From assembly GCF_000620465.1 (NCBI RefSeq), contig NZ_JIBE01000004.1:992001-1056000 (forward strand): a stretch of DNA of 64,000 nt, written 5' to 3'. Numbering within the stretch: position 1 is the first letter of the stretch; each line of letters opens with the position of its first letter. A model generated the notes under the pieces. It was given only the letters and a program-made list of their open reading frames with translations, was not told the origin of the DNA and ran no database searches. This DNA is from Ralstonia sp. UNC404CL21Col. GTDB taxonomy: Bacteria > Pseudomonadota > Gammaproteobacteria > Burkholderiales > Burkholderiaceae. The translations under genes were made by a program, and so were the position numbers. This document shows, piece by piece, positions 5,853 to 37,817 of the stretch.

Positions 5853-7203
<1,351 letters not shown>

Positions 7204-10755: not shown

Positions 10756-11706
10756 TCAGGCGGCCACGCTCAGCGGAATGGTGTCGCGGACCAACGAATC
10801 CATCTCGGCAGAAACATCCTGATGTGTTTGGGCCATGCCCAGGCGGTCATGCAAGTACGCCTCGAAGTCAGCACGCACTTCCGGATGGCGCAGGGCAAAC
10901 TCGACGGTGGCCTGCAGGTAACCGAACTTGCTGCCGCAATCGAAACGCTGACCACGATAGCGATAAGCCAGGATCTGCTCTTCAGCCAGCAGGCTCTGGA
11001 TGGCGTCGGTCAATTGCAGTTCGCCGCCGGCGCCCGGCTTCAAATTGCGCAGATGGTCGAAGATGCGCGGCGTCAGGATGTAGCGGCCGACCACGCCCAG
11101 GTTCGACGGTGCGTCCTTCGGTGCCGGCTTCTCGACGATGCCGTCGAGCTTGACGAGGCGGTCATCCCATTCACGGCCCGCCACCACGCCATACGAACGC
11201 GAGGCTTCCGGCGCAATCGTTTCGACGCCCACGATGGAGCACCGGTAGTGATCGTAAAGCTCCGTCATCTGCTGCATGACAGGCGGCTGGTTGTCCAGCA
11301 GGTCATCCGCCAGGATCACGGCGAAGGGTTCGTCGCGTACCAGTTTCTGCGCGCACAGCACCGCGTGGCCGAGGCCCAGCGTCTCGGGCTGGCGCACATA
11401 GAAACACTCGACGCCGGCCGGCTTGATGGACTGCACCATCTCCAGCAGCGCCTGCTTGTTCTTGGCCGCCAGTTCGGTTTCGAGTTCGTACGCCTTGTCG
11501 AAATGATCTTCGATCGCCCGCTTGGCGCGGCCCGTGATGAAGATCATTTCCGTGATACCCGCAGCGGCCGCCTCTTCCACCGCATATTGGATCAGCGGTT
11601 TATCGACGATGGGCAGCATCTCTTTCGGGCTGGCCTTGGTGGCGGGGAGAAAGCGCGTACCGAGCCCCGCCACGGGAAACACGGCCTTGGTGATCTTCTC
11701 GTTCAT
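10756..11706 (-). CDS. galU: UTP-glucose-1-phosphate uridylyltransferase
   Basis: 316 residues. It makes UDP-glucose from UTP and glucose-1-phosphate for surface polysaccharide and lipid glycosylation. The nucleotidyltransferase signature KAVFPVAGLGTRFLPATK is at the N-terminus, followed by KEMLPIVDKPLIQYAVEEA and the EKP motif (GIVEKPAPKD). The start at 11706 is preceded by GGAG at 5-bp spacing. It stands alone between the nested palindrome and an intergenic region that carries a ParB-site-like palindrome and one iteron. The glycosyltransferases at 26-30 kb are possible users of its product (inference). Confidence 0.96.
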   Translation of the reverse strand: MNEKITKAVFPVAGLGTRFLPATKASPKEMLPIVDKPLIQYAVEEAAAAGITEMIFITGRAKRAIEDHFDKAYELETELAAKNKQALLEMVQSIKPAGVECFYVRQPETLGLGHAVLCAQKLVRDEPFAVILADDLLDNQPPVMQQMTELYDHYRCSIVGVETIAPEASRSYGVVAGREWDDRLVKLDGIVEKPAPKDAPSNLGVVGRYILTPRIFDHLRNLKPGAGGELQLTDAIQSLLAEEQILAYRYRGQRFDCGSKFGYLQATVEFALRHPEVRADFEAYLHDRLGMAQTHQDVSAEMDSLVRDTIPLSVAA

Positions 11707-11867
11707 GACAACTCCATTGGTGGGACGTAGCGTCATGAGCAAGTCATATGCCAGTGCCCGCCAACGCGTTGAAGCTTTGGCTTGCGCGTGTTTTGGGGCG
11801 GAGCGAGGAGGCTTACTGCCTCTGGCTCGACGCCTTTCCTACAACGGGTTGCAACTCCGTCACACGA

Positions 11868-24449: not shown

Positions 24450-24458
24450 TCGGCCCGG

Positions 24459-24474
24459 GGGCACAACTTTTGCG
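24459..24474 (+). promoter_or_regulatory. Putative sigma-54 (-24/-12) promoter of the AI-2E exporter gene
   Basis: GGGCACAACTTTTGCG: GGCAC at -24 and TTGC at -12 with canonical GG-N10-GC spacing. Predicted start about 24485, 18 bp before the ATG. Confidence 0.55.
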
Positions 24475-24502
24475 CAGAGAACGGTGAACCACTTTCTCTG
24501 CC

Positions 24503-25759
24503 ATGCCACCCGACCCGACGCCCCCCTCCGCCACGTCCGAACCGCTGCATGCCGGCCTGCTTGATGGGCTGCGGCAGCCTGCATGGCGCGTGGCGATGGT
24601 GCTCGTCGCCATCGGCGGCACGCTGGTGTTTCTGCAATGGGCGCGCGCGTTTCTGGTGCCGTTCACTTTGGGCGTGGTGCTCGCGTTTGCGTTGAATCCG
24701 GTGGTGGTGTGGTTGCGGCGCTGCCATGTGCCGCGCCCCATCGCTGCAGGCCTCGTGGTACTGGGCCTGTGGATCGGTGGTGCGGTGCTCGTCTTTGGGA
24801 TGCAAGACGGGGTATCCGCCATGGCAGCCCGGCTTCCCGTTGCGGTTGAGCGCATGGCGCAGGCCGTCGACGGTATGCGCGGCCACATGGGCGGTGCGTT
24901 CGACAAGGTGCGCGAGGCCACGGTCGCACTCGAGCATGCTGCCGAGGGCGTGCAGGGCAAACCGGCACCCGCGCCCGCCCGGCGTTCACCGGCAGCGGCG
25001 CCGGCCGAGCCGCCCACGACGCAGCCCGTGCTGTCGCTGCGCGAGTTTCTATGGACCGGCTCCGCCAATCTCTTCGCACTGGCGGGGCAACTGGTCGTTG
25101 TCTCGTTTCTCGTCTACTTCCTGCTCGCTTCCGGCCAGGCGCTCAAGCGCAAATGGGTGCGCGCGGTGGGCACCACATTGAGCGAGAAGAAGCGTGCGGT
25201 GCGCATGATGGCGGTCATCGGCACGCAGATCCAGTATTCGCTGCTGGTGCTGTTTGCGACCAACATCGTGCTGGGCATCCTCACCACGGTGGCCTTTGTG
25301 CTGCTCGGCATGGAGGACGCGGCGGTCTGGGGCTTGGCGACTGCGGTGCTGCACTTCGTGCCATATCTAGGTTCAGTGGTGATTGCCGTGGCCAGCGGCA
25401 TTGGCGCGTACCTGCAAATGGGTGCGTGGTCGGATGCGCTTGTGGTGGCGGGCGTCACGCTGCTGCTGGCCACGCTGGTCGGCACGCTGCTCGTGACGTG
25501 GCTGCAGAGCCGTGCGTCCAAGCTCGATCCGTGCGTCGTCTACATCGGCCTGCTGCTGTGGGGGTGGCTATGGGGCCTGTGGGGCTTGCTGCTCGGAACG
25601 TCCATCACGGCGATGATCAAGGTCGTATGCGATCACGTCGACCGGCTGCGGCCGCTGGGTACGCTGCTGGGCACGACTGACGCGCCGGCCGGCGTATCAC
25701 AGCGGTTGCTCGATCGAATGCGAGAGCGCCATACGCGACGCTCGCGACGCGTGCGCTGA
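24503..25759 (+). CDS. AI-2E/PerM-family membrane protein
   Basis: 418 residues. The layout is that of the AI-2 exporter/PerM superfamily. Two helices lie at about 30-90, a large soluble segment at about 95-190 contains a Pro/Ala-rich insert (PAPAPARRSPAAAPAEPPTT), and about five further helices include the conserved VLHFVPYLGSVV and LLLWGWLWGLWGLLLG motifs. Family members export small molecules or ions; the substrate here is unknown. The C-terminal tail is basic. A -24/-12 element directly upstream links it to the sigma-54 block that follows. Confidence 0.85.
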   Translation: MPPDPTPPSATSEPLHAGLLDGLRQPAWRVAMVLVAIGGTLVFLQWARAFLVPFTLGVVLAFALNPVVVWLRRCHVPRPIAAGLVVLGLWIGGAVLVFGMQDGVSAMAARLPVAVERMAQAVDGMRGHMGGAFDKVREATVALEHAAEGVQGKPAPAPARRSPAAAPAEPPTTQPVLSLREFLWTGSANLFALAGQLVVVSFLVYFLLASGQALKRKWVRAVGTTLSEKKRAVRMMAVIGTQIQYSLLVLFATNIVLGILTTVAFVLLGMEDAAVWGLATAVLHFVPYLGSVVIAVASGIGAYLQMGAWSDALVVAGVTLLLATLVGTLLVTWLQSRASKLDPCVVYIGLLLWGWLWGLWGLLLGTSITAMIKVVCDHVDRLRPLGTLLGTTDAPAGVSQRLLDRMRERHTRRSRRVR

Positions 25760-25928
25760 TTCCCCTGAATCACCTTGCGCAGCAAGCGTTACAAGCGCGC
25801 ATGTAACCCTTACGCAACCATCACACCGTGACGTGCGCCAACACGTCGGTACGTTGCCGCGCCTTCGTCGCGCCATTGTGCAGCGGTGGTGCCGGTCTTG
25901 TCGGTGCAGTGATGCACACATGGATTGC

Positions 25929-25944
25929 GGGCACGTCGGTTGCG
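25929..25944 (+). promoter_or_regulatory. Strong putative sigma-54 promoter of the hypothetical-GT-PAP2 operon
   Basis: GGGCACGTCGGTTGCG matches TGGCACG-N4-TTGC at all positions but the first. Predicted start about 25955, with AGGAGG and the ATG at 25984 just downstream. The rest of 25760-25983 shows no gene. Confidence 0.7.
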
Positions 25945-25983
25945 GTGCGCAAGGCATTCAGATCACGTCCGCAGGAGGGCGCC

Positions 25984-26415
25984 ATGAATCGACTCCGCCC
26001 CGCCTTATGCGGCCCCCATCAGCGCGGCGAACGTCAGGCGGGCACGAACCCGCCGCGTGCGCCCGGCGCGGGCCAAAACATCGAGAGCATCGACAAGATG
26101 CATGGCGACGCCGAGCGCGGCGAACCGGCGTCGAGCGCGGCCGAGCGGCTGCCGCACGAGCGCGACCAGCATGTTGAAGAGCAGGGTTCCGAACCGCGCA
26201 GCAGCGCCAAACAGGCTGCCCGCGACATCGAAAACGGGCAGCTCGATACCGACCTGCACAACACCCCCGGCGTCGAGCGCGTCGTGCGCGACCGTCATTC
26301 AGCCAACCGTGACGATGGCGATCGCCAGGTCGCCAACCGCAGCGCAGACGACCTCGCGCACAAGCGAGGACAGACGGCCGCCCCCTCGCACCGCCGCGAC
26401 GAAGACAAAGGTTGA
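25984..26415 (+). CDS. Hydrophilic, probably disordered small protein
   Basis: 143 residues, very rich in Arg, Asp, Glu, Gln and His and nearly devoid of hydrophobic stretches (e.g. RDIENGQLDTDLHNTPGVE, RHSANRDDGDRQVANRSADD). There is no signal peptide or recognisable domain. The start is fixed by AGGAGG 6 bp upstream. It is the first gene of a putative sigma-54-driven operon with a glycosyltransferase and a PAP2 phosphatase. Composition resembles stress-related hydrophilic proteins, but that is only a resemblance. Confidence 0.7.
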   Translation: MNRLRPALCGPHQRGERQAGTNPPRAPGAGQNIESIDKMHGDAERGEPASSAAERLPHERDQHVEEQGSEPRSSAKQAARDIENGQLDTDLHNTPGVERVVRDRHSANRDDGDRQVANRSADDLAHKRGQTAAPSHRRDEDKG

Positions 26416-26422
26416 TCGATCC

Positions 26423-27595
26423 ATGCGCATTGCTTATGTGACCGAAACCTGGCCGCCGGAACTGAACGGCGTGTCGCTCACTGCAGCACGCACCGTGGCG
26501 TTCCTGCAGACGCGCGGGCACGACGTGATGCTCGTGCGTCCGCGCCAAAGCGCCATCGACGCCGGCAAGCCTGCACTTGCGGACGACACGTTGCGCGTGC
26601 CCGGCGTGCCGATTCCGTTGTATCCGGATTTGCGTATGGGCTTGCCCGCACGCCGGCGGTTGCTCCGCGCCTGGAGCACCTACCGGCCCGAGCTGGTGCA
26701 TGTGGCCACCGAAGGGCCGCTCGGCTGGTCTGCCATTCGGGCCGCGCGGCAACTCGGCGTGCCGGTCACGTCAGATTTCAGAACGCGCTTTGACGAGTAC
26801 GGCCGCCACTACGCGTGGGAGGGCGCCGTGACGTTGGTGCGCGCGTATCTCCGCGCCTTTCACAACCGCACTGACCGCACCTTCGTTCCCACGCGCGAAC
26901 TGCAGCGGCAGTTGAGCGACCTCGATTTCGAGCGCCTGACCGTCAGCACGCGCGGCGTCGATGCACACCGCTTTACACCGCAGGCCCGCAGCGATGCCTT
27001 GCGCACGCAGTGGGGCGTCGCGGCCGATACGCCGGTCGTGCTGACGGTCGGGCGTTTGGCGTTGGAAAAGAACCTGGGTGTCGCACTCGATGCGTTTGAT
27101 GCTGTGCGCGAACGCGTGCCGCACGCCCGCCTCGTCATGGTGGGCGATGGTCCGCAGCGCAACGCACTGCGCAGGCGCTGCCCCGATGCCATCTTTGCCG
27201 GCACCCAGCATGGCGAAGCACTGGCAGCGCACTACGCATCTGCGGACCTGTTTCTCTTTCCCAGCCTGACAGAGACCTTCGGCAACGTGGTCGTCGAAGC
27301 CATGGCGAGTGGCTTGCCCGTGGTGGCCTTCGACACCGCTGCGGCGGGCATGCACGTGCGCAGCGCCGAGAACGGCTTGCTCGCGCGCGTTGGTGATGCG
27401 GCGTCCTTTGCGCGGCATGCCGTCACCCTGGCCACGGACGCCGGCTTGCGGCAACGCTTGGGTCAGGCAGCCCGCGCGACGGCGCAGACGCTCGATTGGC
27501 CCCGCGTGCTCGAGCGCTTTGAAGACGCGCTCATCGCCGTGCACGATGCAGCCACCAACGGGGAGGCCTACCATGGCGACCCACGCCTGGCCTGA
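26423..27595 (+). CDS. GT4-family glycosyltransferase
   Basis: 390 residues with a GT-B fold. The N-terminal domain opens MRIAYVTETWPPELNGVSLT. The C-terminal nucleotide-sugar domain has VVLTVGRLALEKNL, MVGDGPQRNAL and the E-x7-E motif region PSLTETFGNVVVEAMASG. It resembles MgtA/PimB-like mannosyl or glucosyl transferases that glycosylate lipids. It starts 7 bp after the previous stop and overlaps the PAP2 gene by 23 bp, so the three genes form one operon. A role in making a glycolipid is inferred from that pairing. Confidence 0.9.
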   Translation: MRIAYVTETWPPELNGVSLTAARTVAFLQTRGHDVMLVRPRQSAIDAGKPALADDTLRVPGVPIPLYPDLRMGLPARRRLLRAWSTYRPELVHVATEGPLGWSAIRAARQLGVPVTSDFRTRFDEYGRHYAWEGAVTLVRAYLRAFHNRTDRTFVPTRELQRQLSDLDFERLTVSTRGVDAHRFTPQARSDALRTQWGVAADTPVVLTVGRLALEKNLGVALDAFDAVRERVPHARLVMVGDGPQRNALRRRCPDAIFAGTQHGEALAAHYASADLFLFPSLTETFGNVVVEAMASGLPVVAFDTAAAGMHVRSAENGLLARVGDAASFARHAVTLATDAGLRQRLGQAARATAQTLDWPRVLERFEDALIAVHDAATNGEAYHGDPRLA

Positions 27596-28109
27596 CTGGA
27601 AGCGCTGGCGCGAGCGTGATCGGCAGCTCGCCGTGGCGCTCAACCATGTAGCGGGCAATGCGTCGGCGATGCGCTTCTATCGCGGTGTCAGCCGCCTTGG
27701 CGACGGCATGCTCTGGTATGCGTTGATGGCGGCGTTGCCCGTGGTGGGCGGTGAAGCGGGCTGGGAATGCGCCAAGCAGATGGGCCTCACGGGGCTGCTC
27801 TCGCTCATCATCTACATCGTGCTCAAGCGCGGCGTGTGCCGTCCGCGACCGTATCTTTCCTGCGAAGAAATCCACCTGTGCGGGCGCGTGCTCGATCAGT
27901 TCAGTTTTCCATCGGGCCACACGCTGCACGCGGTGTCGTTCAGCATCGTGATGGCGGCGTATTACCCCCGCATGGCGCTGGCGCTCGTGCCATTCACGCT
28001 GATGGTCGCCCTTTCTCGCGTCGTGCTCGGCCTGCATTACCCGAGCGACGTGCTCGCGGGCGCCGGCCTTGGGATGCTGATCGGCGGATTGTCGGTGTGG
28101 CTGTTCTAA
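27573..28109 (+). CDS. PAP2-family membrane phosphatase
   Basis: 178 residues, about five membrane helices. The acid-phosphatase signature is complete: KRGVCRPRP (motif 1), PSGHT (motif 2) and SRVVLGLHYPSD (motif 3). It probably dephosphorylates a lipid phosphate such as phosphatidic acid or an undecaprenyl/glycolipid phosphate. A strong GGGAGG precedes the ATG inside the end of the glycosyltransferase gene. It converges with the DUF2334 gene. Confidence 0.92.
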   Translation: MATHAWPDWKRWRERDRQLAVALNHVAGNASAMRFYRGVSRLGDGMLWYALMAALPVVGGEAGWECAKQMGLTGLLSLIIYIVLKRGVCRPRPYLSCEEIHLCGRVLDQFSFPSGHTLHAVSFSIVMAAYYPRMALALVPFTLMVALSRVVLGLHYPSDVLAGAGLGMLIGGLSVWLF

Positions 28110-28118
28110 GGCCCGCGC

Positions 28119-28913
28119 TCAGTACGACGTTTGCGCCTGCCCGGTGACGGTGGTTTCCGGGCCGCCCATCCAGGCCTGCGCCAACACCTGCGCAAAGCCA
28201 TTCTTGGTGACGGGCGTGCGCGTCTCCAGGCATGCCGCAAGCAGCTCCTGCCAATGGCGAATGACATCGGGATGGGCCGCGTCGGCCGGGTGCAATCCCA
28301 GGCGCAGCAGCGGTGCGTCGGCATGCCGCTGTGCCAGCCAGCGCAGGTAATACCGCGACACCAGCCGGCGCGCCGGCGAGCGAACGCTATACGTCAGGCA
28401 CGGCGCCTTGAGCGGGCGGCGCGGGTGCAGCAAGTAGAAGCGCCGCAGCGTGGTCGTGTAGCGCAGTGGCAGCCCGTCGAGCGCTTCCCACGTGGCCGGG
28501 TTCATCAGCCATGCCGGCGCGACAAAGCCATGCAGCGGCCAGCCGTTGGCGGCAAACCACGCGGCACCGGCTTCGATGCGCGCACGCGCCGCTGCCAGCG
28601 GAATCGCAGAGAACTCGCCTTCACCGGCCGTGTAGCGCGTGCGGATCAGTTGGTCGATCAGGCCCCCGGGAGGTTGGTCGTCGAGGTGCGCATAGCCGTG
28701 CAGCACAAGTTCATCGCCCTCGGCCAGGCATTCGCTCATCACGCGGCAAAAGCGCTCGCTGTTGCGGGCGGTCGGGCCGCGATAGAAGTTTGGGATGACC
28801 AGCAGCGATTTGGGTACGCGCGCCACCTCGTCCAATGCGGAGAGCAACACCTTGCACGCAGGCCACGTGGCCGGCGTGACATCGTGCATGGCGAGGATGA
28901 GATAGCGCGACAT
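28119..28913 (-). CDS. DUF2334 polysaccharide-deacetylase-like protein
   Basis: 264 residues with the NodB-like fold of DUF2334. The metal-site candidates are LAMHDVTP (first Asp), LVLHGYAH (His-x3-His) and GFVAPAW; a late His occurs in RLGLHPADA. No signal peptide is seen, so the protein is probably cytoplasmic. It lies 20 bp downstream of a glycosyltransferase gene on the same strand, and the two may act in sequence on a glycolipid or polysaccharide precursor (inference). Confidence 0.85.
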   Translation of the reverse strand: MSRYLILAMHDVTPATWPACKVLLSALDEVARVPKSLLVIPNFYRGPTARNSERFCRVMSECLAEGDELVLHGYAHLDDQPPGGLIDQLIRTRYTAGEGEFSAIPLAAARARIEAGAAWFAANGWPLHGFVAPAWLMNPATWEALDGLPLRYTTTLRRFYLLHPRRPLKAPCLTYSVRSPARRLVSRYYLRWLAQRHADAPLLRLGLHPADAAHPDVIRHWQELLAACLETRTPVTKNGFAQVLAQAWMGGPETTVTGQAQTSY

Positions 28914-28933
28914 GATGGACAGATCGGTGTGGA

Positions 28934-30148
28934 TTACCGGCCGCGCGATGCACGCACGCGTTCGCGTGCCGGCGGGAGAGTTGTTTCAGCGGCGGTGCCA
29001 GTCTGGCGGCCGAGTAGAGCGAGATAGCGTTGCAGCAGTTGCGGCAGCACCGACCGCCAGTCGTATTGCATGGCATGGCGGCGCGCGGCGTGCGCGAGCG
29101 TCACGGGGTCTCGTTGGCGCAGCGCATGGAGCGCCTGTGCAAAATCGTCAGCGACGCAGCGTGGGACGGCATACCCGACGTGCTCGTCCACCAGCTCGCT
29201 CAAGCCTCCGGCCGCACAGGTGACGACCGGCACGCCGCTGGCCATCGCTTCCAGTGCGACGAGGCCGAAAGTCTCCTGATCGCCCGCATGCACGAAGACA
29301 TCGGCACTGGCCATGGCGGCGGCCAGGTGCGCCGCATCACCTTCATAAGCGAGCGCGCGCACGTTCTTGCCGCGCGGAGGTGTCGGGCCCGAGCCGATGG
29401 TGACGAGCACGCTGCCGTCGTCGAGCTTGTCCACCGCGTCGCAGAGTACCTGCAGGTTTTTCTCCGGCGCATAGCGCCCGACGTAGAGCAGCACGCGTGC
29501 ATCGCGCGGCAGGTCGAGCTGTTCGCGCCAGCGCAGCGAGCGCCGTGCGGGGTGGAACAGGCGCGTGTCCACGCCCAGCGGCTGCAGTTCAATGCGCTGC
29601 ACGCCCAGGTCGGCCACCTTCTGCGCGATGTAGCGGCTCGGCACGAAGACCGTATCGAAGTGGGGATACAGCTTGCGGGCATACGCCGCTGCGGCCAGTT
29701 CGGCGGGCGGGCCACCGAGCCGGCGGAAGAAGGCGGGCAGATCGGAGTGATAGAACGCCGCCACGGGCACCTGCAGACGCGCGCCGGCATGGACCGCCGC
29801 CCACGACAACCGGTATGGGTCGCCGGCTTCGATCAGGTCCGGCGATAACGCACACAGTGCACGTACGGCAGGCCCGGTGCGCAGCGGAATGCGATAGCCG
29901 TGCGAGAGCGGCAGCGGCACGCCCGGCACCACGGCGATCTCGTTGCTGGCGTCGTCCGCCGTGCCCGGCACAACGAGCGTGTGCCGCCAGTGCGTGGAGC
30001 GCAGAAAGTCGTGCTTGGACCGCAGGTAGCGTTTGACGCCACCGCTTTCCGCTGCCCAGAACATCGTCACGTCCGCCAGATGCAACGAGGCGGCCGTGGC
30101 ATCGCCGTCGTGGCGATGCGGATAGTGATCGGTGGGCAGCTTGCGCAC
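28934..30148 (-). CDS. GT4-family glycosyltransferase in the rpoN operon
   Basis: About 404 residues if it starts at the GTG at 30148, 6 bp after the rpoN stop; a later ATG (MFWAAESGGVKRYL) is also possible. The donor-binding domain has LLYVGRYAPEKNL, VTIGSGP and DQETFGLVALEAMASG. The N-terminal segment ESGGVKRYLRSK is typical of family-4 transferases. It is co-transcribed with rpoN upstream and with the DUF2334 gene downstream, an unusual partner for a sigma factor. Confidence 0.85.
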   Translation of the reverse strand: MRKLPTDHYPHRHDGDATAASLHLADVTMFWAAESGGVKRYLRSKHDFLRSTHWRHTLVVPGTADDASNEIAVVPGVPLPLSHGYRIPLRTGPAVRALCALSPDLIEAGDPYRLSWAAVHAGARLQVPVAAFYHSDLPAFFRRLGGPPAELAAAAYARKLYPHFDTVFVPSRYIAQKVADLGVQRIELQPLGVDTRLFHPARRSLRWREQLDLPRDARVLLYVGRYAPEKNLQVLCDAVDKLDDGSVLVTIGSGPTPPRGKNVRALAYEGDAAHLAAAMASADVFVHAGDQETFGLVALEAMASGVPVVTCAAGGLSELVDEHVGYAVPRCVADDFAQALHALRQRDPVTLAHAARRHAMQYDWRSVLPQLLQRYLALLGRQTGTAAETTLPPARERVRASRGR

Positions 30149-30153
30149 GGTGG

Positions 30154-31656
30154 TCAGACCTGGCGCCGCATTTCCGCCGGCGCAATGCGCATGAGCCCGC
30201 GATACTTGGCGACGGTGCGTCGCGCAACGATCACGCCCTGCTCGGCCAGCATCTTTGCGAGCGACACATCCGAGAGCGGCGCGTCCGCGTCTTCGGCTTC
30301 GATCATCTCCTTGAGCAGCGCCCGCACCGAAGCCGCCGAGCATGCGCCCCCCGTGTCAGTCGCCAGCTGGCGCGAGAAGAAGTACTTGAATTCGAAGATG
30401 CCGCGCGGCGTGGCCATGTACTTGTTGCCCGTGGCGCGCGAGATGGTCGATTCGTGCAGGCCGAGTTCTTCGGCCACATCACGCAGCACCAGCGGCTTCA
30501 TGGCGACCTCGCCGTATTCGAGGAAGTGCTTCTGGTGCGCGACGATCGCCTCGGCCACGCGCTGGATGGTGGCAAAGCGCTGCTGCGCGTTGCGGATTAG
30601 CCAGCGCGCCTCCTGCAGCTGATGCGCCAGCGGCGTGCGATGGTGGCCGCGCGTCTGCGCAAACAGCTCGGCGTACACCTTGTTGATGCGCGCGCATGGC
30701 GCCACAGCGGGATTCGTGAGTGCAATCCACTTGCCCTTGATCTTGGTGACGATCACGTCCGGCACGATGTAGCCGGCATGTGCCTGCGAGAAGCGCAGCC
30801 CCGGGCGCGGGTCCAGCATGCGGATCAGTGCGCAGGCATCGCGCAGCTCGTCTTCCGTACAGCCCAGCGCACGACGCATCTGCGTGAATTCGCGCTTGGC
30901 CAGACGCGGCAGGTGGCTGCGCACGATGTCCTGTGCGATTTCCTGAATGCGCTCTTCGGCTTCGGTGTCAGCGGGGCGCGCTTCGATCTGCAGGCGCAGA
31001 CATTCGGCAAGGTCGCGCGCGGCCACGCCCGGCGGATCCAGGCTCTGTACGAGCGCCAGCGCAATCTGCATTTCCTTCTCGGTCGGCGGCGGCTCCACCG
31101 GCGCCAGCGGGATCAGTTCGGAAAGCAGCTGGCGCAGGTAACCGTCGTCGTCCAGCGCTTCGATCAGCGTCTGTGCGACCAGGCAGTCGCGCTCAGACAG
31201 GCGATAGCTGCGCAGCTCCTGATGCAGATGCTCGCGCAGGCTCGGCGTGGAGTGCACCCACTCGCCGATGTCGCTGTCTTCACCGTCGCCGTGGTGGGCG
31301 CCGCCGTGGCTGTAGTAGGTGCTGAAGTCGGTAGGAAACTCTTCCGATGCGGCCAGCGTCGCGTCGGTCTCGATGGCGCTGGTGGTGGTTTCCAGCGGGG
31401 CATCGTCGACAGGCGTGTGGTCGGCCGCGGCGCCGTCCAGATCGGCAGAAGTGGCAATGTCGCCGGTGCGTGCGACATCAGGCTGCGCACCTGCTTCTTG
31501 CTCGACTTCTTCCAGGAACGGATTGCTTGCGAGCGCTTCTTGCATTTCCTGCGCAAATTCGGTTGCAGACAACTGCAGCAGCTTGACGGACTGCTGCAGC
31601 CGCGGCGTTAGCGCGAGATGCTGCTTCGCACGCATTTCCAGAGCGGCCTTGACCAT
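30154..31656 (-). CDS. rpoN: RNA polymerase sigma-54 factor (RpoN, likely second copy)
   Basis: 500 residues. Region I is Gln/Leu-rich (QHLALTPRLQQSVKLLQLS). Region II is long and acidic (about 55-120). The core-binding domain and HTH follow, and the C-terminal RpoN box begins ARRTVAKYR. The start at 31656 is set by AAAGGAGG 9 bp upstream. The usual chromosomal neighbours (lptB before, hpf and ptsN after) are absent. Here a glycosyltransferase and a DUF2334 gene follow, so this is probably a replicon-borne paralogue like rpoN2 of Ralstonia. A -24/-12 element lies upstream on its own strand, suggesting autoregulation. Confidence 0.95.
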   Translation of the reverse strand: MVKAALEMRAKQHLALTPRLQQSVKLLQLSATEFAQEMQEALASNPFLEEVEQEAGAQPDVARTGDIATSADLDGAAADHTPVDDAPLETTTSAIETDATLAASEEFPTDFSTYYSHGGAHHGDGEDSDIGEWVHSTPSLREHLHQELRSYRLSERDCLVAQTLIEALDDDGYLRQLLSELIPLAPVEPPPTEKEMQIALALVQSLDPPGVAARDLAECLRLQIEARPADTEAEERIQEIAQDIVRSHLPRLAKREFTQMRRALGCTEDELRDACALIRMLDPRPGLRFSQAHAGYIVPDVIVTKIKGKWIALTNPAVAPCARINKVYAELFAQTRGHHRTPLAHQLQEARWLIRNAQQRFATIQRVAEAIVAHQKHFLEYGEVAMKPLVLRDVAEELGLHESTISRATGNKYMATPRGIFEFKYFFSRQLATDTGGACSAASVRALLKEMIEAEDADAPLSDVSLAKMLAEQGVIVARRTVAKYRGLMRIAPAEMRRQV

Positions 31657-31716
31657 TCGCCTTGCCTCCTTTGGTGAGTGGGCGTCGACATTGCCGTCGA
31701 CAGGTCACCGCATCGA

Positions 31717-31732
31717 TGCAAAGGGTATGCCA
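31717..31732 (-). promoter_or_regulatory. Putative sigma-54 promoter upstream of rpoN
   Basis: The minus strand reads TGGCATACCCTTTGCA (TGGCA and TTGCA intact, GG-N10-GC). Predicted start about 31706, giving a leader of about 50 nt to the rpoN ATG. Confidence 0.62.
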
Positions 31733-31885
31733 TGTCAACAAACCCAGTCGCCACAAGGCTTTACGGGCGGCTGGCACGCCGGTTTCTACATGGTCATGTC
31801 GTTTTTATATGCGCAGTGTTGCCGGCACATGACAGGGCGGGCGTGGGCACGCGCTGCGCCGGCCGGGCCAGATGGGTGGCACCGC

Positions 31886-31901
31886 GGGTACATGCGTTGC
31901 T
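31886..31901 (+). promoter_or_regulatory. Putative sigma-54 promoter of the secreted-protein gene
   Basis: GGGTACATGCGTTGCT: GG, AC and TTGCT match. Predicted start about 31912, 67 nt before the ATG at 31979. A poorer TGGCACG match at 31772 lacks the -12 GC. Confidence 0.5.
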
Positions 31902-31978
31902 GCGGTAGGAGACGGGAGACGCGCCGCAGTGCGCTTCCGTTGCCTTCTTATCGAGCATCACATCCCAGGAGAAACCAC

Positions 31979-32377
31979 ATGCGAACACGTTTCCTGAGCG
32001 CTGCGCTTGTCAGCGCCATCTTCAGCCTTGGTATGGGTACCGCTATCGCCCAGACGACGGCCGCCCCGGTCGACAACCAGGAATCCAGCAACCCGACCAA
32101 GGCCCCGGGCAAGCGCACCGACCCGCCGTCGTCGACGGCCGATCGCACAGCCAATACACCGATGGCCGGCAGCGAAGCGGCACCTGCGGCGGGCGGCAGC
32201 GATACCAGCAAGCCGATGCACAAGAAGCATCGCAGCCACAAGAAGTCCGGGTCTACCGTGCCGGGCGGTACGAACAGCGCGGGCGACATGTCGCACTCGG
32301 GCGTGCAGGCCGGCGGCAATGACGCCGCCACGACGACCGGTAATTCCTACCCCGGCAGTTCCAAGCAAGGTCAGTAA
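31979..32377 (+). CDS. Small exported Ser/Thr/Gly/Lys-rich protein
   Basis: 132 residues. A signal peptide (MRTRFLSAALVSAIFSLGMG, cleavage near AIAQ) is followed by a low-complexity, probably unstructured mature part with a His/Lys cluster (MHKKHRSHKKSG). There is no Cys. AGGAGA lies upstream of the ATG. It is divergent from rpoN, with 322 bp between the starts holding two putative -24/-12 promoters. Function is unknown; periplasmic location is inferred. Confidence 0.72.
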   Translation: MRTRFLSAALVSAIFSLGMGTAIAQTTAAPVDNQESSNPTKAPGKRTDPPSSTADRTANTPMAGSEAAPAAGGSDTSKPMHKKHRSHKKSGSTVPGGTNSAGDMSHSGVQAGGNDAATTTGNSYPGSSKQGQ

Positions 32378-32399
32378 CGTTCAAAGGAAAGGGCTCGCC

Positions 32400-32546
32400 A
32401 TGCCGATGACACTCACCACCGCCGTCCGCACGGGCCCGCGCGCCCGCGCGGAAACCGAACCGACACCGCGCCGGCCCGCACCCGAACCGCAGGAGCGCCG
32501 ACGCCACGAGCATCCCGGCGAGCGCGCGCACGCGCATCCGCGCTAA
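32400..32546 (+). CDS. Possible 48-residue Arg/Pro/His-rich peptide
   Basis: A short frame starting 22 bp after the previous stop with AAAGGAAAGG about 8 bp before its ATG. The product (ending HEHPGERAHAHPR) is highly basic and low-complexity. It has no known family; it may be a real small protein co-transcribed with the exported protein, or chance. Confidence 0.4.
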   Translation: MPMTLTTAVRTGPRARAETEPTPRRPAPEPQERRRHEHPGERAHAHPR

Positions 32547-32606
32547 ACCTCAGCGCGGATGCAGGGGTACGGCGTTACCAGGTTGAGGCTTGGAGAAGCG
32601 CCGCAG

Positions 32607-33710
32607 TCAGGCCGCCATGGCGGCGGCCGCGGTGCTTTGATAGAGGTCGAGACGGTTGTACAGCGTTTTCAGGCTCACGCCGAGCGTCTTGGCGGCTTGG
32701 CGCTTATCGCCATGAAAATGCTCGAGCGTCGCGAGGATCATCGCCCGCTGCGCATCCGCGAGTGTCACGCCCACCGACAGGCTCAGCACACCTTCCTTGA
32801 CCGTCGGGCGCGCCGGGCCGCGTGCTGGTGCGAGCGGCGTGGCCAGCTCGACGGTTTTCTCGCCGAGGATGTAGCCGCGCTGCACGGCGTTGCGCAGTTC
32901 ACGCACATTGCCGGGCCAGGTCTGGCTGCGCAGGGCGGTCAGGGCCTGACGCGAGAACACCTTGTCGGTCTGGTGCGCGGCATTGAACTGGGCGAGAAAA
33001 TGCAGGGCCAGCTCTTCGATGTCGTCGCCGCGATCGCGCAGCGGCGGCACATGCAGCGGCACCACCGCCAAGCGGTACATCAGATCTTCGCGGAAGGCCC
33101 CTTCGCTAACCGCCTCAAGCAGGTTGCGGTTGGTGGCTGCGATGATGCGCGCGCGCGTCTGGATCGGCTCGGTGCCGCCCACCCGCATGAACACGCCGGT
33201 TTCTAGCACGCGTAGCAGCTTGACCTGCATCTCGACCGGCATCTCGGTGATTTCGTCGAGGAAGATCGTGCCGCCGCAGGCGTGTTCGAAGTAACCGATA
33301 TGGCGCTGGGCAGCCCCGGTAAAGCTGCCCTTTTCATGGCCGAACAGTTCCGATTCGATCAGGTTGGGCGAGATGGCGCCGCAGTTCACGGCGATGAAGG
33401 CTTGGTCAGCGCGCGGGCTCATGTCGTGCACCGTGCGCGCGATCAGCTCCTTGCCGGTACCCGATTCGCCCATGATGAGCACGGTGGCAAGCGTGCCGGA
33501 CACCTTGCCGATCTGGTCGTACAGCGCACGCATGACCGGCGAGCGGCCGTAGAGGTGACCGAAATCCGGCTCGGCAACAGGTTGGGCAGGAGGCGTTTCA
33601 ACGTCGGGCGCTACACCCTCTGCGTCGTCAAAGTCGGCCAGGGCAGGGGGATAGCTCAGGCGCCCGGCGGTCACGGCACGTTCGTCGGCGAAGGCTTCGC
33701 TCAAGGACAT
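32607..33710 (-). CDS. Sigma-54 activator without a receiver domain
   Basis: 367 residues. A short variable N-terminus (about 1-50) has no receiver, PAS or GAF domain. The AAA+ domain (about 53-285) has Walker A GESGTGKE, the GSFTGA loop and LDEITEMP, and the Fis-type HTH reads AAKTLGVSLKTLYNRL. It closely resembles the regulator at 34249, so the two look like paralogues. Lacking a sensory domain, it may be constitutively active or controlled by a partner protein. It drives sigma-54 transcription, most likely of genes in this block. Confidence 0.93.
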   Translation of the reverse strand: MSLSEAFADERAVTAGRLSYPPALADFDDAEGVAPDVETPPAQPVAEPDFGHLYGRSPVMRALYDQIGKVSGTLATVLIMGESGTGKELIARTVHDMSPRADQAFIAVNCGAISPNLIESELFGHEKGSFTGAAQRHIGYFEHACGGTIFLDEITEMPVEMQVKLLRVLETGVFMRVGGTEPIQTRARIIAATNRNLLEAVSEGAFREDLMYRLAVVPLHVPPLRDRGDDIEELALHFLAQFNAAHQTDKVFSRQALTALRSQTWPGNVRELRNAVQRGYILGEKTVELATPLAPARGPARPTVKEGVLSLSVGVTLADAQRAMILATLEHFHGDKRQAAKTLGVSLKTLYNRLDLYQSTAAAAMAA

Positions 33711-34150
33711 GGCTCCCTCGTGGTTGATCGCGACGGGGACGTCCTGGCGAGCGGCTGCATCTTCAGCGATGCAGTCTCCGGAAGGCTGGGTACGTCGTCA
33801 TCCCGTCACATTGTGTTGAAAAGTTGAGCCATTATCAGGGCCGCCGAAGCGCGTTGTATGTCGGGCATGCGCTGACGTTTCTTCCATCCTGTCGGCCAAA
33901 CGCTGACAAGAAACGGGCCTGAGAGGCAGATGCCGCGCGGCTTTCACATTTTCATGCGGCGAGAAGTGTCCATTTCGGCCCGAGGGTGGCGCCGCGCCGA
34001 CCATCTCAACTATGCTGACTGCTACGTAGTTCCGGGACGGCCGCTGGAGTGATGTATTCGATCCATTTCTTGCACGTGCGCTTGTAAAAATTACCGACGC
34101 CCCTCTTGCCGACGCGGGTTTTGAAGCGCGATGGCAGAGGTTGTATTGGA

Positions 34151-34166
34151 TGGAATACTTTTTGCA
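34151..34166 (+). promoter_or_regulatory. Putative sigma-54 promoter of the NtrC-type regulator gene
   Basis: TGGAATACTTTTTGCA: TGG and TTGCA intact with correct spacing. Predicted start about 34177, 72 nt before the ATG. The remainder of the 538-bp gap (33711-34248) holds a small hairpin near 33761-33780 and no gene. Confidence 0.52.
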
Positions 34167-34248
34167 CCTGCCGCCGGTTCTGCAGCCAGGCGCACCGTCG
34201 CGCCATGCATGACCGCCGGCAGATGCCGGCTCATCCAACCACATTGAG

Positions 34249-35655
34249 ATGCCACATATCCTGATTGTCGAAGACGATGCCAACGCGCGGGCCGCTCTGG
34301 GTGAGCTGGTGGGTGCCGAGGGCTTCACCACCGCGCTGGCCGGGTCGCTGCGCGATGCGCGCATTCAGATGTCGCGTCACAGCCCCGATGCCGTGCTGAT
34401 CGATCTTGTCCTGCCTGACGGCAACGGCATGGATCTGATGGAAGACATCGCGCCGCACTCCGGCACCGAGATCATCGTCATGACGGGCCACGCCAGCGTG
34501 GAGACCGCCGTCGAGGCGCTGCGCATGGGCGCGGCCGACTACCTCGTCAAGCCGGTCAACTTCCAACGTTTGAAATCGGTCCTGGCACGGATTCCACGCC
34601 CGGGCGATCTCAAAGCCGAGATCGGCAATCTGCGGGGCGAGCTGCGGCGCCTGGGCCTCTTCGGCCAGATGCTCGGCAACTCGACGGCGATGCAGACGCT
34701 GTACGACCAGGTCAGCCGCGTGGCGCCCACCGAGGCGACTGTGCTGCTCATCGGCGAGTCGGGCACCGGCAAGGAGCTGGCCGCGCAGACCATTCACGAC
34801 CTCAGCCTGCGTCGCAAGCAGCCGTTCCTGCCGGTCAACTGCGGCGCCATTTCGCCCAACCTGATCGAGTCGGAAATGTTCGGCCACGAGCGCGGCAGCT
34901 TCACGGGCGCGGATCGCCAGCACAAGGGCTACTTCGAACGCGCCAACGGCGGCACGCTGTTCCTCGATGAAATTACCGAGATGCCGATCGAGCTGCAGGT
35001 GAAGCTGCTGCGCGTGCTGGAAACCGGCGTGTTCATGCGCGTGGGCACCAACCGCGAGATCGACTCCGACGTGCGCGTGATTGCCGCCACCAACCGCGAC
35101 CCCGAAGAGGCCGTGGCAGACGGCAAGCTGCGTGCCGACCTGTATCACCGCCTGAACGTGTTTCCGCTGCAATTGCCGCCGCTGCGCGAGCGCGGCAAGG
35201 ATGTCGAGCTGCTGGCCCAGCATTTCCTCGACCAGCTCAACGCGCAGAGCAATACCAAGAAGGCATTCCTGCCGCCCGCCATGGAGACACTGCGCAGCTA
35301 CCACTGGCCGGGCAATGTGCGCGAACTGCGCAACTACGTGCAGCGCGCGTACATCCTGTCGGACGACGCCGGCATCGATACCGCCAACGTGCCGCTGCAG
35401 GTGTCGAGCACGCAGACCACGTCGGGTTCCACGCTGACGATTTCGGTCGGCACATCGCTGGCGAGCGCCGACAAGAAGCTCATTCTTGCCACGCTCGAGC
35501 AATGCGGGGGTGTGAAAAAGCGTGCGGCCGAGCTGCTCGGTATCAGCCTGAAGACGCTTTACAACCGGCTTGAGGAATACGGCAACAGCGGCGGTGAGGA
35601 CGGCGGCGAGGGCAACAGCGCTGGTTCCGGCCGCGCGCATGCCACCGAGGCATAA
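34249..35655 (+). CDS. NtrC-family sigma-54 response regulator
   Basis: 468 residues. Receiver domain (about 1-120; EDD cluster, phospho-Asp in VLIDLVLPDGNG, Lys in VKPVN), AAA+ domain (about 140-375; GESGTGKE, GSFTGA, LDEITEMP) and C-terminal Fis HTH (AAELLGISLKTLYNRLEEY), then an acidic/Gly-rich tail. No histidine kinase gene is adjacent, so it is an orphan; the soluble hybrid kinase at 22 kb is a possible but unproven partner. The start MPHILIVEDD is fixed by the receiver fold. A likely activator of the local -24/-12 promoters, including its own. Confidence 0.94.
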   Translation: MPHILIVEDDANARAALGELVGAEGFTTALAGSLRDARIQMSRHSPDAVLIDLVLPDGNGMDLMEDIAPHSGTEIIVMTGHASVETAVEALRMGAADYLVKPVNFQRLKSVLARIPRPGDLKAEIGNLRGELRRLGLFGQMLGNSTAMQTLYDQVSRVAPTEATVLLIGESGTGKELAAQTIHDLSLRRKQPFLPVNCGAISPNLIESEMFGHERGSFTGADRQHKGYFERANGGTLFLDEITEMPIELQVKLLRVLETGVFMRVGTNREIDSDVRVIAATNRDPEEAVADGKLRADLYHRLNVFPLQLPPLRERGKDVELLAQHFLDQLNAQSNTKKAFLPPAMETLRSYHWPGNVRELRNYVQRAYILSDDAGIDTANVPLQVSSTQTTSGSTLTISVGTSLASADKKLILATLEQCGGVKKRAAELLGISLKTLYNRLEEYGNSGGEDGGEGNSAGSGRAHATEA

Positions 35656-35670
35656 CCCGACCTCCTGGCG

Positions 35671-35686
35671 CGGTACGCGGCTTGCT
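35671..35686 (+). promoter_or_regulatory. Putative sigma-54 promoter of the DUF1328 gene
   Basis: CGGTACGCGGCTTGCT: GG, ACG and TTGCT match. Predicted start about 35697, 49 nt before the ATG at 35746. Confidence 0.58.
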
Positions 35687-35745
35687 GATCCCGTGGGGTA
35701 TCCGCCCCATGGCGGCAAGCTCACTCAACTGCACAGGAGGTCACC

Positions 35746-35913
35746 ATGCTGCGTTATGCAGTCGTCTTTTTCATCATCGCCCTGATTGCGGCCGTGCTCG
35801 GGTTTGGCGGCATCGCTGCCGGCGCAGCGAGCATCGCCAAGATTCTGTTCATGATTTTCGTGGTGCTGTTTGTGGTCAGCCTCATCTGGGGCCTGGTCGC
35901 GGGCAGAGGATGA
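35746..35913 (+). CDS. DUF1328/YtjA-like small membrane protein
   Basis: 55 residues, almost entirely hydrophobic with two helices ([39 protein letters not shown]). The Phe-Gly-Gly-Ile-Ala turn and [11 protein letters not shown] are hallmarks of the DUF1328 (YtjA) family, seen in stress-induced operons. AGGAGG lies 6 bp upstream. It is followed by a DUF883-like and a YihY gene on the same strand. Function unknown. Confidence 0.9.
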
Positions 35914-35982
35914 CGCCGGGATGATGCGCACAGCTTTCAACCCGGCTCTCACGATGCCATGCAACTCCAGGAGCGCTGACTG

Positions 35983-36288
35983 ATGGAACCGTCTCAAACC
36001 AACCCCTTTCCCAAATCCGATGCCAACGGCAACCTCATCCGCGGCGACGTGGCGCAAGCCGCCGAGCGTGTGAAGGCGACCACCGCACAGGCCATCGACC
36101 GCACTGCCGACGCTGCGGCCACCGCGCTCGACGAGGCCGCTGCCAAGCGCGAGCAACTGCGCGCTTCCCAGCAGCGCCTGATGAGCGATGCGGCCGAATG
36201 CATGCGGTCGCATCCGCTTGCGACGATTGGCCTCGCGTTCGGCGCGGGCTTTCTCATCAGCCGGTTGCTGGGCGGCGGTAACGACTGA
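35983..36288 (+). CDS. DUF883/ElaB-YqjD-like membrane-anchored protein
   Basis: 101 residues. An Ala/Glu/Arg-rich amphipathic helical region (about 20-75) is followed by one C-terminal membrane helix (HPLATIGLAFGAGFLISRLLG), the layout of ElaB/YqjD proteins that tether ribosomes to the inner membrane in stationary phase. It starts 69 bp after the DUF1328 stop, probably in the same transcript. A second protein of this type is encoded at 37430. Confidence 0.8.
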   Translation: MEPSQTNPFPKSDANGNLIRGDVAQAAERVKATTAQAIDRTADAAATALDEAAAKREQLRASQQRLMSDAAECMRSHPLATIGLAFGAGFLISRLLGGGND

Positions 36289-36409
36289 GGGGCGAAAGCC
36301 TTCCTTCGACGGCGGCCACGGTCGCGCGCTTGCGCGCGCGCCGTGCGCTGACTAGGCTCAAGGTCCAGGCCGGCATTGCGCTGGCCGCATCGCTTTGCAA
36401 GGAACCTCC

Positions 36410-37420
36410 ATGCGCCTGGCTGCCTGCTTCGACCGTGCCCTGCTCAAGCGATCTGCCCAGGTGCTGATCGGGGCAGTGCAGCAGTGGTCTGCGCATCGCG
36501 CCGCGAGCAAGGGCGCGGCGTTGTCGTTCTACACGTTGTTCTCGATGGCACCGGTGCTGGTGCTCGTGATCTCCATTGCGGGCTTGTTCTTTGGCGAACA
36601 GGCTGCGCGCGGCGAAATCTTTGGGCAGATCGAAGGGCTGGTCGGCGCGCAGGGTGCCTCCGCGGTGGAAGCCGTGCTTGCAGCAACCCGGCGCTCGGGC
36701 AACGGCCTGTTCGCGGCCGTCACTGCCGTCGCGCTGTTGTTGGTGGGCGCCACCACGGCGTTCTCCGAACTCAAGGACAGCCTCGATGAACTTTGGGACG
36801 TTCCGCCACGCCAGCAGCCCGGGCTGTGGGGGCTCCTGCGTTCACGTCTGTTGTCCTTTAGCCTGATCCTCGTGCTGGCGTTTCTGCTGCTGGTGTCGCT
36901 CACCATCAACGCGGCGTTGGCGGTGGTGGAGCGCTTCTGGGGCGCCTTGTGGTCGGGCTCCGCTTCGGGCATTGCGCTGCTGGCGGCCCAAGTGGTGTCG
37001 TCGGCGTTTTCGTTTGCCGTCGTGGCGCTGCTGTTCGGCACCATTTTCAAAATGCTGCCGGAGACGCGCGTGGCGTGGCGCGACGTCGCCCTCGGTGCTG
37101 TCGTGACGGCGCTGCTCTTCACGCTGGGCAAGCACCTCATCGGCCTGTATCTCGGCAACAGCGCGGTGGCATCGTCTTACGGGGCGGCAGGCTCGGTGGT
37201 GGCACTGATGCTGTGGATTTACTACTCGGCGCAGATCTTCTTTTTTGGCGCGCTGGTCACGCGGCAATATGCGTTGCAGTTCGGCAGCCGTCAGTACGAA
37301 GCGGCGGGCCGGGCCCATGCCGCCGCGCAGGCGGCATTGCTCAACCCGGCGCTGGCCGCCAACCTGTCCAATGGAGCGACGACGGGCAGCACCGCCAGCG
37401 CCCCACGCGACGGGCGCTAG
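36410..37420 (+). CDS. yihY: YihY/BrkB-family membrane protein
   Basis: 336 residues with six membrane helices. Signature features are KGAALSFYTLFSMAPVLVLV near the N-terminus, ELKDSLDELWDVPP after helix two and YGAAGSVVALMLWIYYSAQI near the last helix. Historically mis-annotated as ribonuclease BN; family function is unresolved. The start at 36410 follows AAGGAA. It lies 121 bp after the DUF883-like gene, so it may be co-transcribed or have its own promoter. Confidence 0.9.
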   Translation: MRLAACFDRALLKRSAQVLIGAVQQWSAHRAASKGAALSFYTLFSMAPVLVLVISIAGLFFGEQAARGEIFGQIEGLVGAQGASAVEAVLAATRRSGNGLFAAVTAVALLLVGATTAFSELKDSLDELWDVPPRQQPGLWGLLRSRLLSFSLILVLAFLLLVSLTINAALAVVERFWGALWSGSASGIALLAAQVVSSAFSFAVVALLFGTIFKMLPETRVAWRDVALGAVVTALLFTLGKHLIGLYLGNSAVASSYGAAGSVVALMLWIYYSAQIFFFGALVTRQYALQFGSRQYEAAGRAHAAAQAALLNPALAANLSNGATTGSTASAPRDGR

Positions 37421-37429
37421 GGCGCCCGC

Positions 37430-37744
37430 TCAATCCCGCGTCAACTGCTCCAGCAGCATCCCCGCCACAAACGCCAGGCCGACCGTAATGACCGGATGCT
37501 GACGCACGGAGCCGCTCGCCTGCTCCGAGACATTCGCGTGCAAGTTCTTCAACTGCTCAGTGCGTTTGTCGAACTGCGTGAGCGCAGTGGAAAGGACGCT
37601 CGCGAGCCGGTCGATCCCCTCGGCGGTCGCGTCTTTCACGCGCTGTGCGGTGTGGTCGATCTGCGGATGCAGCGTGGTGACGGTGGCACCGTTGGTGCCG
37701 TTCGCGCCATTGCTGCCGGGCGACTTCGGGTTCAGTTCGGTCAT
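37430..37744 (-). CDS. DUF883-like protein with C-terminal anchor
   Basis: 104 residues. An N-terminal Asn/Gly-rich spacer (GSNGANGTNGATVTT), an amphipathic helix (about 30-75) and a C-terminal hydrophobic segment (HPVITVGLAFVAGMLLEQL) parallel the protein at 35983, including the His-Pro before the membrane helix. AGGAGG lies 5 bp before the ATG, and a -24/-12 element lies 39 bp upstream. It converges with yihY. Confidence 0.78.
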   Translation of the reverse strand: MTELNPKSPGSNGANGTNGATVTTLHPQIDHTAQRVKDATAEGIDRLASVLSTALTQFDKRTEQLKNLHANVSEQASGSVRQHPVITVGLAFVAGMLLEQLTRD

Positions 37745-37782
37745 GTGGGCCTCCTGAGCTGGGTAACGTCACCCTGGTGGCA

Positions 37783-37798
37783 AGCAACCGCCATGCCC
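37783..37798 (-). promoter_or_regulatory. Putative sigma-54 promoter of the second DUF883-like gene
   Basis: The minus strand reads GGGCATGGCGGTTGCT (GGCA, G and TTGCT match). Predicted start about 37772, a 28-nt leader including the Shine-Dalgarno. Confidence 0.62.
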
Positions 37799-37817
37799 CC
37801 AACGTTGCGCGATGCCA

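Follow-up and report, generated by a model that had tools for sequence, protein, structure and literature searches.

Conserved -24/-12 elements clustered around rpoN2, a second sigma-54 gene of Ralstonia

The window analysed here is a stretch of 64,000 nucleotides from Ralstonia sp. UNC404CL21Col (NZ_JIBE01000004.1, positions 992,001 to 1,056,000 of the forward strand), which belongs to contig C4 of a genome of 5.09 Mb. This genome has two sigma-54 genes, one on contig C3 and one on C4, and the window copy, rpoN2, is treated here together with seven -24/-12 elements around it. According to Pfam, rpoN2 is flanked by an activator without receiver domain, an NtrC-type response regulator, two GT4 glycosyltransferases, a PAP2 phosphatase and a DUF2334 deacetylase, and the cluster further holds AI-2E, DUF1328, DUF883-like and BrkB-type genes. 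The gene order, followed by best protein match, is retained in 11 of 15 Ralstonia loci; in the other four some genes are missing, with rpoN2, activator and regulator all present. Among named records, the closest relatives of rpoN2 are from Ralstonia, including R. pickettii.

Elements with no T at -26 and with G or T at -11 are called class II below, and are contrasted with elements that combine T at -26 with A at -11 (TGG..TTGCA). Row counts in the following list refer to alignments of Ralstonia sequences, window included, and give the rows in which GG-N10-GC is kept.

24458..24474, + strand: class II -24/-12 element before the AI-2E family gene; 7/7 rows
24503..25759, + strand: AI-2E family membrane protein (Pfam)
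25928..25944, + strand: class II -24/-12 element before the run of hydrophilic gene, GT4 and PAP2; 12/12 rows
25984..26415, + strand: hydrophilic protein, no Pfam match
26423..27595, + strand: second GT4 glycosyltransferase (Pfam; weaker NF053787 match, 155.9 bits)
27573..28109, + strand: PAP2 phosphatase (Pfam)
28119..28913, - strand: DUF2334 deacetylase, GpgD-like (Pfam DUF2334; NF053788)
28934..30133, - strand: GT4 glycosyltransferase, GpgS-like, directly 3' of rpoN2 (Pfam GT4; NF053787), the start being our choice
30154..31656, - strand: rpoN2, second sigma-54 factor, 500 amino acids (Pfam AID, CBD and DBD; own group in the tree)
31717..31733, - strand: rpoN2 -24/-12 element ATGGCATACCCTTTGCA, T at -26 and A at -11; score 20.4; 16/16 rows
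31885..31901, + strand: class II -24/-12 element before the exported-protein gene; 11/11 rows
31979..32377, + strand: small hydrophilic protein, probably exported (no Pfam match; signal-like N-terminus by eye)
32607..33710, - strand: sigma-54 activator without receiver domain, GSFTGA loop (Pfam; loop inspection)
34150..34166, + strand: response-regulator -24/-12 element ATGGAATACTTTTTGCA, T at -26 and A at -11; score 19.9; 16/16 rows
34249..35655, + strand: NtrC-type response regulator with receiver, AAA+ and Fis helix-turn-helix domains, GSFTGA loop (Pfam; loop)
35670..35686, + strand: class II -24/-12 element before DUF1328; 15/15 rows
35746..35913, + strand: DUF1328 small membrane protein (Pfam)
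35983..36288, + strand: DUF883-like protein, possibly co-transcribed with DUF1328 (weak match, below the Pfam cut-off)
37430..37744, - strand: second DUF883-like protein, named by eye (no Pfam match)
37783..37799, - strand: class II -24/-12 element before the second DUF883-like gene; 14/14 rows

All seven elements lie where the original prediction had placed them, upstream of genes and with GG-N10-GC around a TTGC core, and the same region does encode the sigma factor, with three Pfam sigma-54 domains, and two activators. As expected of sigma-54 promoters, GG-N10-GC before these genes is conserved, being kept in all aligned rows for all seven elements. Sixteen rows were possible for each element; rows were dropped when there was no orthologue or when the protein match started more than 8 residues in, which for the AI-2E element removed 9 of the 16. 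Several elements form conserved islands in diverged DNA. The exported-protein element is the least island-like, as its entire upstream region is well conserved.

Both conservation and clustering depend on the spacing. Over the seven alignments, GG-N8-TTGC was conserved in all rows 8 times, against 0 to 1 at each of 13 other spacings; the intergenic region between rpoN2 and the exported-protein gene was aligned twice and is counted twice in the 8. Between 24.4 and 38 kb there are 9 pre-gene GG-N8-TTGC sites in 1818 intergenic bases, against 2 in the remaining 7264, so that 9 of the 11 such sites of the window fall in a 13.6 kb region with 1818 of the 9082 intergenic bases. The predicted physical clustering of a sigma-54 regulon around rpoN is therefore borne out. 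The nine sites include two beyond the seven elements, at 36320 and 31681. The seven elements are real as a set, since their conservation and clustering are tied to the correct spacing. The site at 36320 was tried as an eighth element, before the BrkB-type gene, and was rejected as it is not conserved; at about 36310-36360 the conserved blocks are GCTTGCGC and GCTGACTA, which do not form a sigma-54 element.

Scoring alone is no proof of the elements. Our own sigma-54 matrix, with weights based on the published consensus, was compared with dinucleotide shuffles. Only the rpoN2 and response-regulator elements were outliers among the seven. The remaining five score 7.9 to 12.2, and matches in that range are about as numerous in the window as in the shuffled sequences. 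Because five of the seven are within shuffle expectation, the matrix score was rejected as evidence in its own right, and the comparison with shuffled sequence proposed in the original prediction singles out two elements and not the other five. A simpler pattern, GGYAYRNNNNTTGC, gave 123 matches in the genome and 99 for a reversed-pattern control, with seven matches within the 13.3 kb of the cluster. One of these seven falls within the coding sequence of the regulator, whose own element the pattern does not match. The cluster count is not independent, since the pattern was drawn partly from the cluster elements.

Two further features lie close to the elements. An inverted repeat, GTTACA-N8-TGTAAC, is located at 25788-25807, 5' of the hydrophilic gene, with its left half only in a conserved block. 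The intergenic region between rpoN2 and the exported-protein gene has conserved blocks at 31788-31799 and 31826-31835, the first containing the palindrome ACATGGTCATGT and the other CACATGACAG.

For the wider regulon we used the listed GGYAYRNNNNTTGC matches (100 of 123), and the resulting regulon list is therefore incomplete. Genes were called with a crude finder based on codon usage, for which 19 genes of the window served as training set. Among the matches listed, 54 upstream intergenic sites carry A at -11 in 15 of 21 cases with T at -26, against 3 of 33 without (P = 3e-6, and 2e-5 with the window excluded). This association is absent from the 47 other sites among these matches, where A at -11 occurs in 0 of 6 with T at -26 and in 4 of 41 without. 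For the non-T sites among them, C at -11 is found in 1 of 33 upstream sites against 16 of 41 others (P = 2e-4). Upstream elements thus split into two classes by -26 and -11, which appears to be new.

The targets of the two classes tend to differ in kind. Three targets of listed T-26/A-11 sites were scanned, namely an NMT1-like binding protein, a dicarboxylate symporter and an MFS transporter, and other targets of this class among the matches listed look transport-like by eye. Transport-type targets are the known field of RpoN1. Outside the window the matches listed include 24 class II sites, and targets were scanned for 17 of them. The picture is mixed: Ku, a Cfa-type synthase, DJ-1/PfpI, DUF3175, DUF3005, DUF421, a sedolisin-type protease and two glycine-zipper proteins, some of them of stress type, stand beside Rrf2, MFS, an acyltransferase and an amidohydrolase, which are not, and four targets have no family.

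Four class II elements outside the cluster, on C3 and C4, were followed through Ralstonia. The element is present before Ku in 14/14 loci from 13 genomes (fragment L247 left out), before DUF3175 in 11/11 usable loci of 13, before a small basic protein in 12/12 usable loci of 13, and before Cfa in 16/16 rows, one row having T at -26 and one having A at -11. These similar conserved elements away from the cluster also appear to be new. Three of the 16 genomes lack Ku, DUF3175 and the small basic protein alike, and their rpoN2 locus is also without AI-2E, PAP2, the exported protein and any close match to GTa; this joint absence is possibly a single lineage loss. In L261 and its relatives a partly conserved inverted repeat, CGCAATACGTTATTGCG, lies about 20 bases 5' of the Cfa element. 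One genome (G011, contigs C34 and C113) has two Ku copies, one of them matched in two pieces.

The two activators linked to rpoN2 stand apart within the genome. Out of 12 strong sigma-54 activators (5 weak AAA matches excluded), GSFTGA is found in these two only, while nine have GAFTGA and one GAFAGA, and GSFTGA is kept in every listed orthologue match of the two. Both have the AAA+ sigma-54 interaction domain and the GAFTGA-type loop of bacterial enhancer-binding proteins, the loop here being GSFTGA. The response regulator is found, 70-73% identical, near rpoN2 in 4 of 5 loci from other genera. A hybrid kinase at 22032-24449 was considered as conserved partner of the regulator and rejected, its matches in four other-genus loci covering the receiver domain only. 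Kinases are located near the regulator in L329 and L330.

RpoN2 is a sigma-54 factor, with all three Pfam domains above cut-off, and has matches of 88-99% in all 15 genus genomes. In a tree of 40 rows, from which seven near-identical rows were left out, the window RpoN2 and 18 others form one RpoN2 group with a support of 87/88, below the starred level. The group adjoins Alcaligenaceae sequences (99/95) and is split from the RpoN1 side with 100/99, which places the window protein in the RpoN2 clade of Burkholderiaceae. Judged by this tree, RpoN2 is an old paralog; the genome also encodes RpoN1, as a separate gene. Residues were counted in 24 RpoN2 rows and 70 other sigma-54s, after 7 intermediate rows, including G026 and Alcaligenaceae, had been set aside beforehand. 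The recognition helix of the helix-turn-helix has A for V at 408 and G for T at 410, and region I positions 7, 19, 24 and 34 also differ. One Ralstonia genome has a third rpoN-like gene (G010:C1:1198162-1199571), 51% identical to RpoN2.

The rpoN2 gene and the GpgS-like and GpgD-like genes are consecutive on one strand with gaps of 20 bases, for the starts that we chose, and for this reason the rpoN2 element probably drives all three. Against the curated NCBIfam models, the GpgS-like protein scores 404.5 bits (NF053787, cut-off 480) and the GpgD-like protein 257.7 bits (NF053788, cut-off 280). As both are below cut-off, we use the names 'GpgS-like' and 'GpgD-like' only. Of the 15 Ralstonia loci, 14 have a match to the GpgS-like protein and all 15 to the GpgD-like one; neither has a match in 5 rpoN2 loci of other genera. 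In P. aeruginosa, GpgS and GpgD make glucosaminyl phosphatidylglycerol (PMC12713373), and this lipid would be the product of the window genes as well. The published gpgSDF genes, as far as described in the part of that paper available to us, likewise have the GT4 synthase and the deacetylase adjacent and in the order S-D; unlike them, the window genes have no gpgF alongside, encode proteins below the NCBIfam cut-offs and are placed 3' of rpoN2. That gpgS- and gpgD-like genes follow rpoN2 on its strand appears not to have been described before.

Ten rpoN2 loci of other genera were compared (L048-L052, L064, L328-L330 and, from B. stagnalis, L304). All ten have pre-gene GG-N8-TTGC sites, 2 to 12 each; the pooled count is 62 for the correct spacing and 12-24 for each of ten others. 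A control of 14 RpoN1 loci, five on the RpoN1 side of the tree and the rest assigned by genus and identity, gave 18 against 7-18; these loci are not independent, since many are from Zoogloea. Two Alcaligenaceae loci (L067, L069) were removed from the control because the tree places them beside RpoN2, and they have 7 and 8 sites, 15 against 0-7. For the 15 Ralstonia rpoN2 loci, which are not independent, the count is 104 against 10-51.

We ran Pfam on ten selected proteins of L048/L049 and ten of L328-L330. The families found were GT20 (trehalose phosphate synthase type), BON, DUF2383, DJ-1/PfpI, DUF3175, PRC-barrel, topoisomerase IB and DUF883. In L328, DUF1328, Ku and LigD come after rpoN2 on its strand with two small open reading frames between, and L330 has a starch-synthase-type gene, an alpha-amylase-type gene, BrkB, a kinase and the regulator. 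In the remaining other-genus loci similar genes were recognised by eye only. Among 29 genomes of other genera and families, DUF3175 occurs in 5 of the 8 that carry an RpoN2-clade gene and in 1 of the remaining 21, a count in which kinship is not corrected and one of the five (G028) has a 32-position match only. Thus the rpoN2 loci of other genera also seem rich in sigma-54 elements and stress-type genes, apparently a new observation.

Published work is cited here from the parts of the papers available to us. Ray et al. 2015 (PMC4371752) describe R. solanacearum rpoN2 as located on the megaplasmid, induced in minimal medium and having a listed -24/-12 element; its expression is abolished in an rpoN1 mutant, and R. 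eutropha and two Cupriavidus species are without rpoN2. Lundgren et al. 2015 (PMC4676750) report that Rsp1667 and Rsp1668, the two activators next to rpoN2, both have GSFTGA, and name Rsp1668 and rpoN2 as possible targets. In this published work the role of rpoN2 stays 'enigmatic'. As in our genome, R. solanacearum has two sigma-54 paralogs, with rpoN2 on a second replicon and preceded by its own element; unlike the present account, the available parts of these papers describe neither a clustered regulon nor a link to gpgSD, and propose no promoter classes and no stress targets. No description of a clustered rpoN2 regulon was found in the open-access literature searched, of which the greater part was seen as listed titles only, and in PMC5357869 rpoN2 stands in the reference list only, with no expression data on it. 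The earlier statement that no such system is described is therefore right only in part: it may hold for the cluster, and not for rpoN2, its promoter and the two activators, which are in the 2015 papers.

Second sigma-54 factors are known elsewhere. In B. pseudomallei, katE expression is lower in an rpoN2 mutant, with CysM and HisA also lowered (Diep et al. 2015, PMC4745423), and this resembles our proposal in that a second sigma-54 affects a stress gene, katE being the target followed. R. (Cereibacter) sphaeroides RpoN1-4 are specialised by -11 and by cognate activators (PMC3162934, PMC4676750), with RpoN3 paired with AprX (PMC11999139). That specialisation recalls RpoN2; its targets are nitrogen fixation, flagella and a repressor gene rather than a stress regulon.

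We consider it reasonably probable that RpoN2 is a specialised sigma-54 paralog for a stress-survival regulon with its core around its own gene. Under poor nutrition, RpoN1 and an activator would switch on rpoN2, as shown in R. solanacearum, and the rpoN2 and response-regulator elements would be RpoN1-type promoters of the form TGG..TTGCA. If rpoN2 is co-transcribed with the gpgS- and gpgD-like genes, the factor would arrive together with enzymes adding glucosamine to phosphatidylglycerol. The phosphorylated response regulator, the activator without receiver domain, or the two together, each with GSFTGA and not GAFTGA, would then open RpoN2. Its class II targets in the cluster would be AI-2E, GT4-PAP2, the exported protein, DUF1328-DUF883 and DUF883-like; elsewhere they would be Ku, Cfa, DUF3175 and others. 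We infer that RpoN2 rather than RpoN1 reads these promoters.

The cluster looks like the core of this wider RpoN2 stress regulon and not the self-contained module first proposed, because conserved elements lie elsewhere (Ku, Cfa, DUF3175, small basic protein), a second rpoN is present in the genome and R. solanacearum rpoN2 depends on rpoN1. What survives of the predicted glycolipid or envelope-stress module is its content, as lipid and envelope-type genes are included. The clustered stress and membrane genes with conserved promoters suggest a stress-response role for the enigmatic RpoN2. Two 2015 studies left R. solanacearum rpoN2 without a role; the elements described here name candidate targets, and such a role is thus directly testable.

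A broader version is possible rather than probable. Throughout Burkholderiaceae, and perhaps Alcaligenaceae, RpoN2 may be a general-stress sigma factor with a -26/-11 dialect, changes in the recognition helix and co-adapted GSFTGA activators, whose regulon nucleates around its gene and includes Ku-LigD DNA-end repair, trehalose/glycogen, membrane lipid and envelope genes. The RpoS and EcfG stress regulons contain similar kinds of genes (Ku, Cfa, trehalose synthase, DUF883, DUF1328). RpoS and EcfG are of other sigma families, whereas sigma-54 needs an ATP-using activator. If true, our reading would add a sigma-54-type general stress response, gated by ATP, that acts alongside RpoS or replaces it. 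In stationary B. thailandensis the increase in RpoS is reported to be modest, and the authors suggest RpoS-independent networks (PMC12322963); an RpoN2 regulon may bear on this, a link which is our own.

Several observations weigh against a dedicated RpoN2 stress regulon. With 123 genome matches against 99 for the control, chance must account for many single sites. Genes not obviously related to stress follow some of the class II sites, and targets were selected on the motif and classed as stress-related from their families. Among 73 upstream stretches, no palindrome that could bind an activator was shared by more than a few. The own element of rpoN2 is mixed in other genera: it is present in 9 of 10 loci, eight of these nine having T at -26, and the base at -11 is T in five, A in two and G in two. 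Ku and DUF3175 in other genera and families were tried as a promoter test (29 genomes, 23 loci fetched, 21 readable) and mostly have no element, partly because starts and operons are uncertain: GG-N8-TTGC is found within 350 bases in 6 of the 21. Three of the six seem plausible (Ku of G030 and G032, DUF3175 of G026), and two of the other three come from genomes for which the tree shows no RpoN2-clade gene. The available parts of both R. solanacearum papers report no phenotype of an rpoN2 mutant (PMC4371752, PMC4676750). R. solanacearum RpoN2 is active with E. coli NtrC and AtoC and restores growth on dicarboxylates (PMC4676750), so that the action of RpoN2 extends beyond GSFTGA activators or class II promoters, which argues against strict specificity; acoR of the same species also has GSFTGA (PMC4676750). 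Finally, pilA has T at -11 and is called rpoN1-dependent, on unpublished data (PMC4371752), and the two promoter classes are therefore tendencies.

The elements could instead be true sigma-54 promoters read by RpoN1 with the GSFTGA activators, RpoN2 being a minor or back-up factor whose position is historical. We regard this as unlikely. It would explain why R. solanacearum rpoN2 mutants have no reported phenotype, and there rpoN1 does most of the known work and controls rpoN2 itself; however, element-dense loci track the RpoN2 group across genera and not the 14 RpoN1 loci, RpoN2 has specific helix-turn-helix and region I residues, and base use differs between the two promoter classes. That the seven elements are chance matches in GC-rich DNA is very improbable: five of them score no better than shuffled sequence, but the conservation and spacing controls refute chance for the set, and a single element could still be chance.

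The gpgS- and gpgD-like genes after rpoN2, and the second GT4-PAP2 pair with its own element, would also suit a narrow membrane-lipid module, making glucosaminyl phosphatidylglycerol and a second glycolipid under acid or cationic stress, with the remote elements belonging to separate regulons. In other bacteria glucosaminyl phosphatidylglycerol is increased under acid and in stationary phase (PMC12713373). Such a module is decidedly unlikely, since the DUF1328, DUF883-like and exported proteins fit it poorly, no gpgF-type flippase is among the Pfam-scanned cluster genes, and the gpgS/gpgD-like proteins are unmatched in the five other-genus loci. The loss of Ku, DUF3175 and the small basic protein from the same three genomes that lack cluster genes, maybe one lineage loss, also speaks against the narrow module.

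Two further sites of the window lie outside the cluster. Another sigma-54 activator domain, with GAFTGA, is found at 6251-6748 on the - strand (L220). A -24/-12-like element, CTGGCATATGACTTGCT, is located at 11739-11752 on the - strand with a score of 17.3, 33 bases before a galU-like gene (10756-11706, - strand) named by eye.

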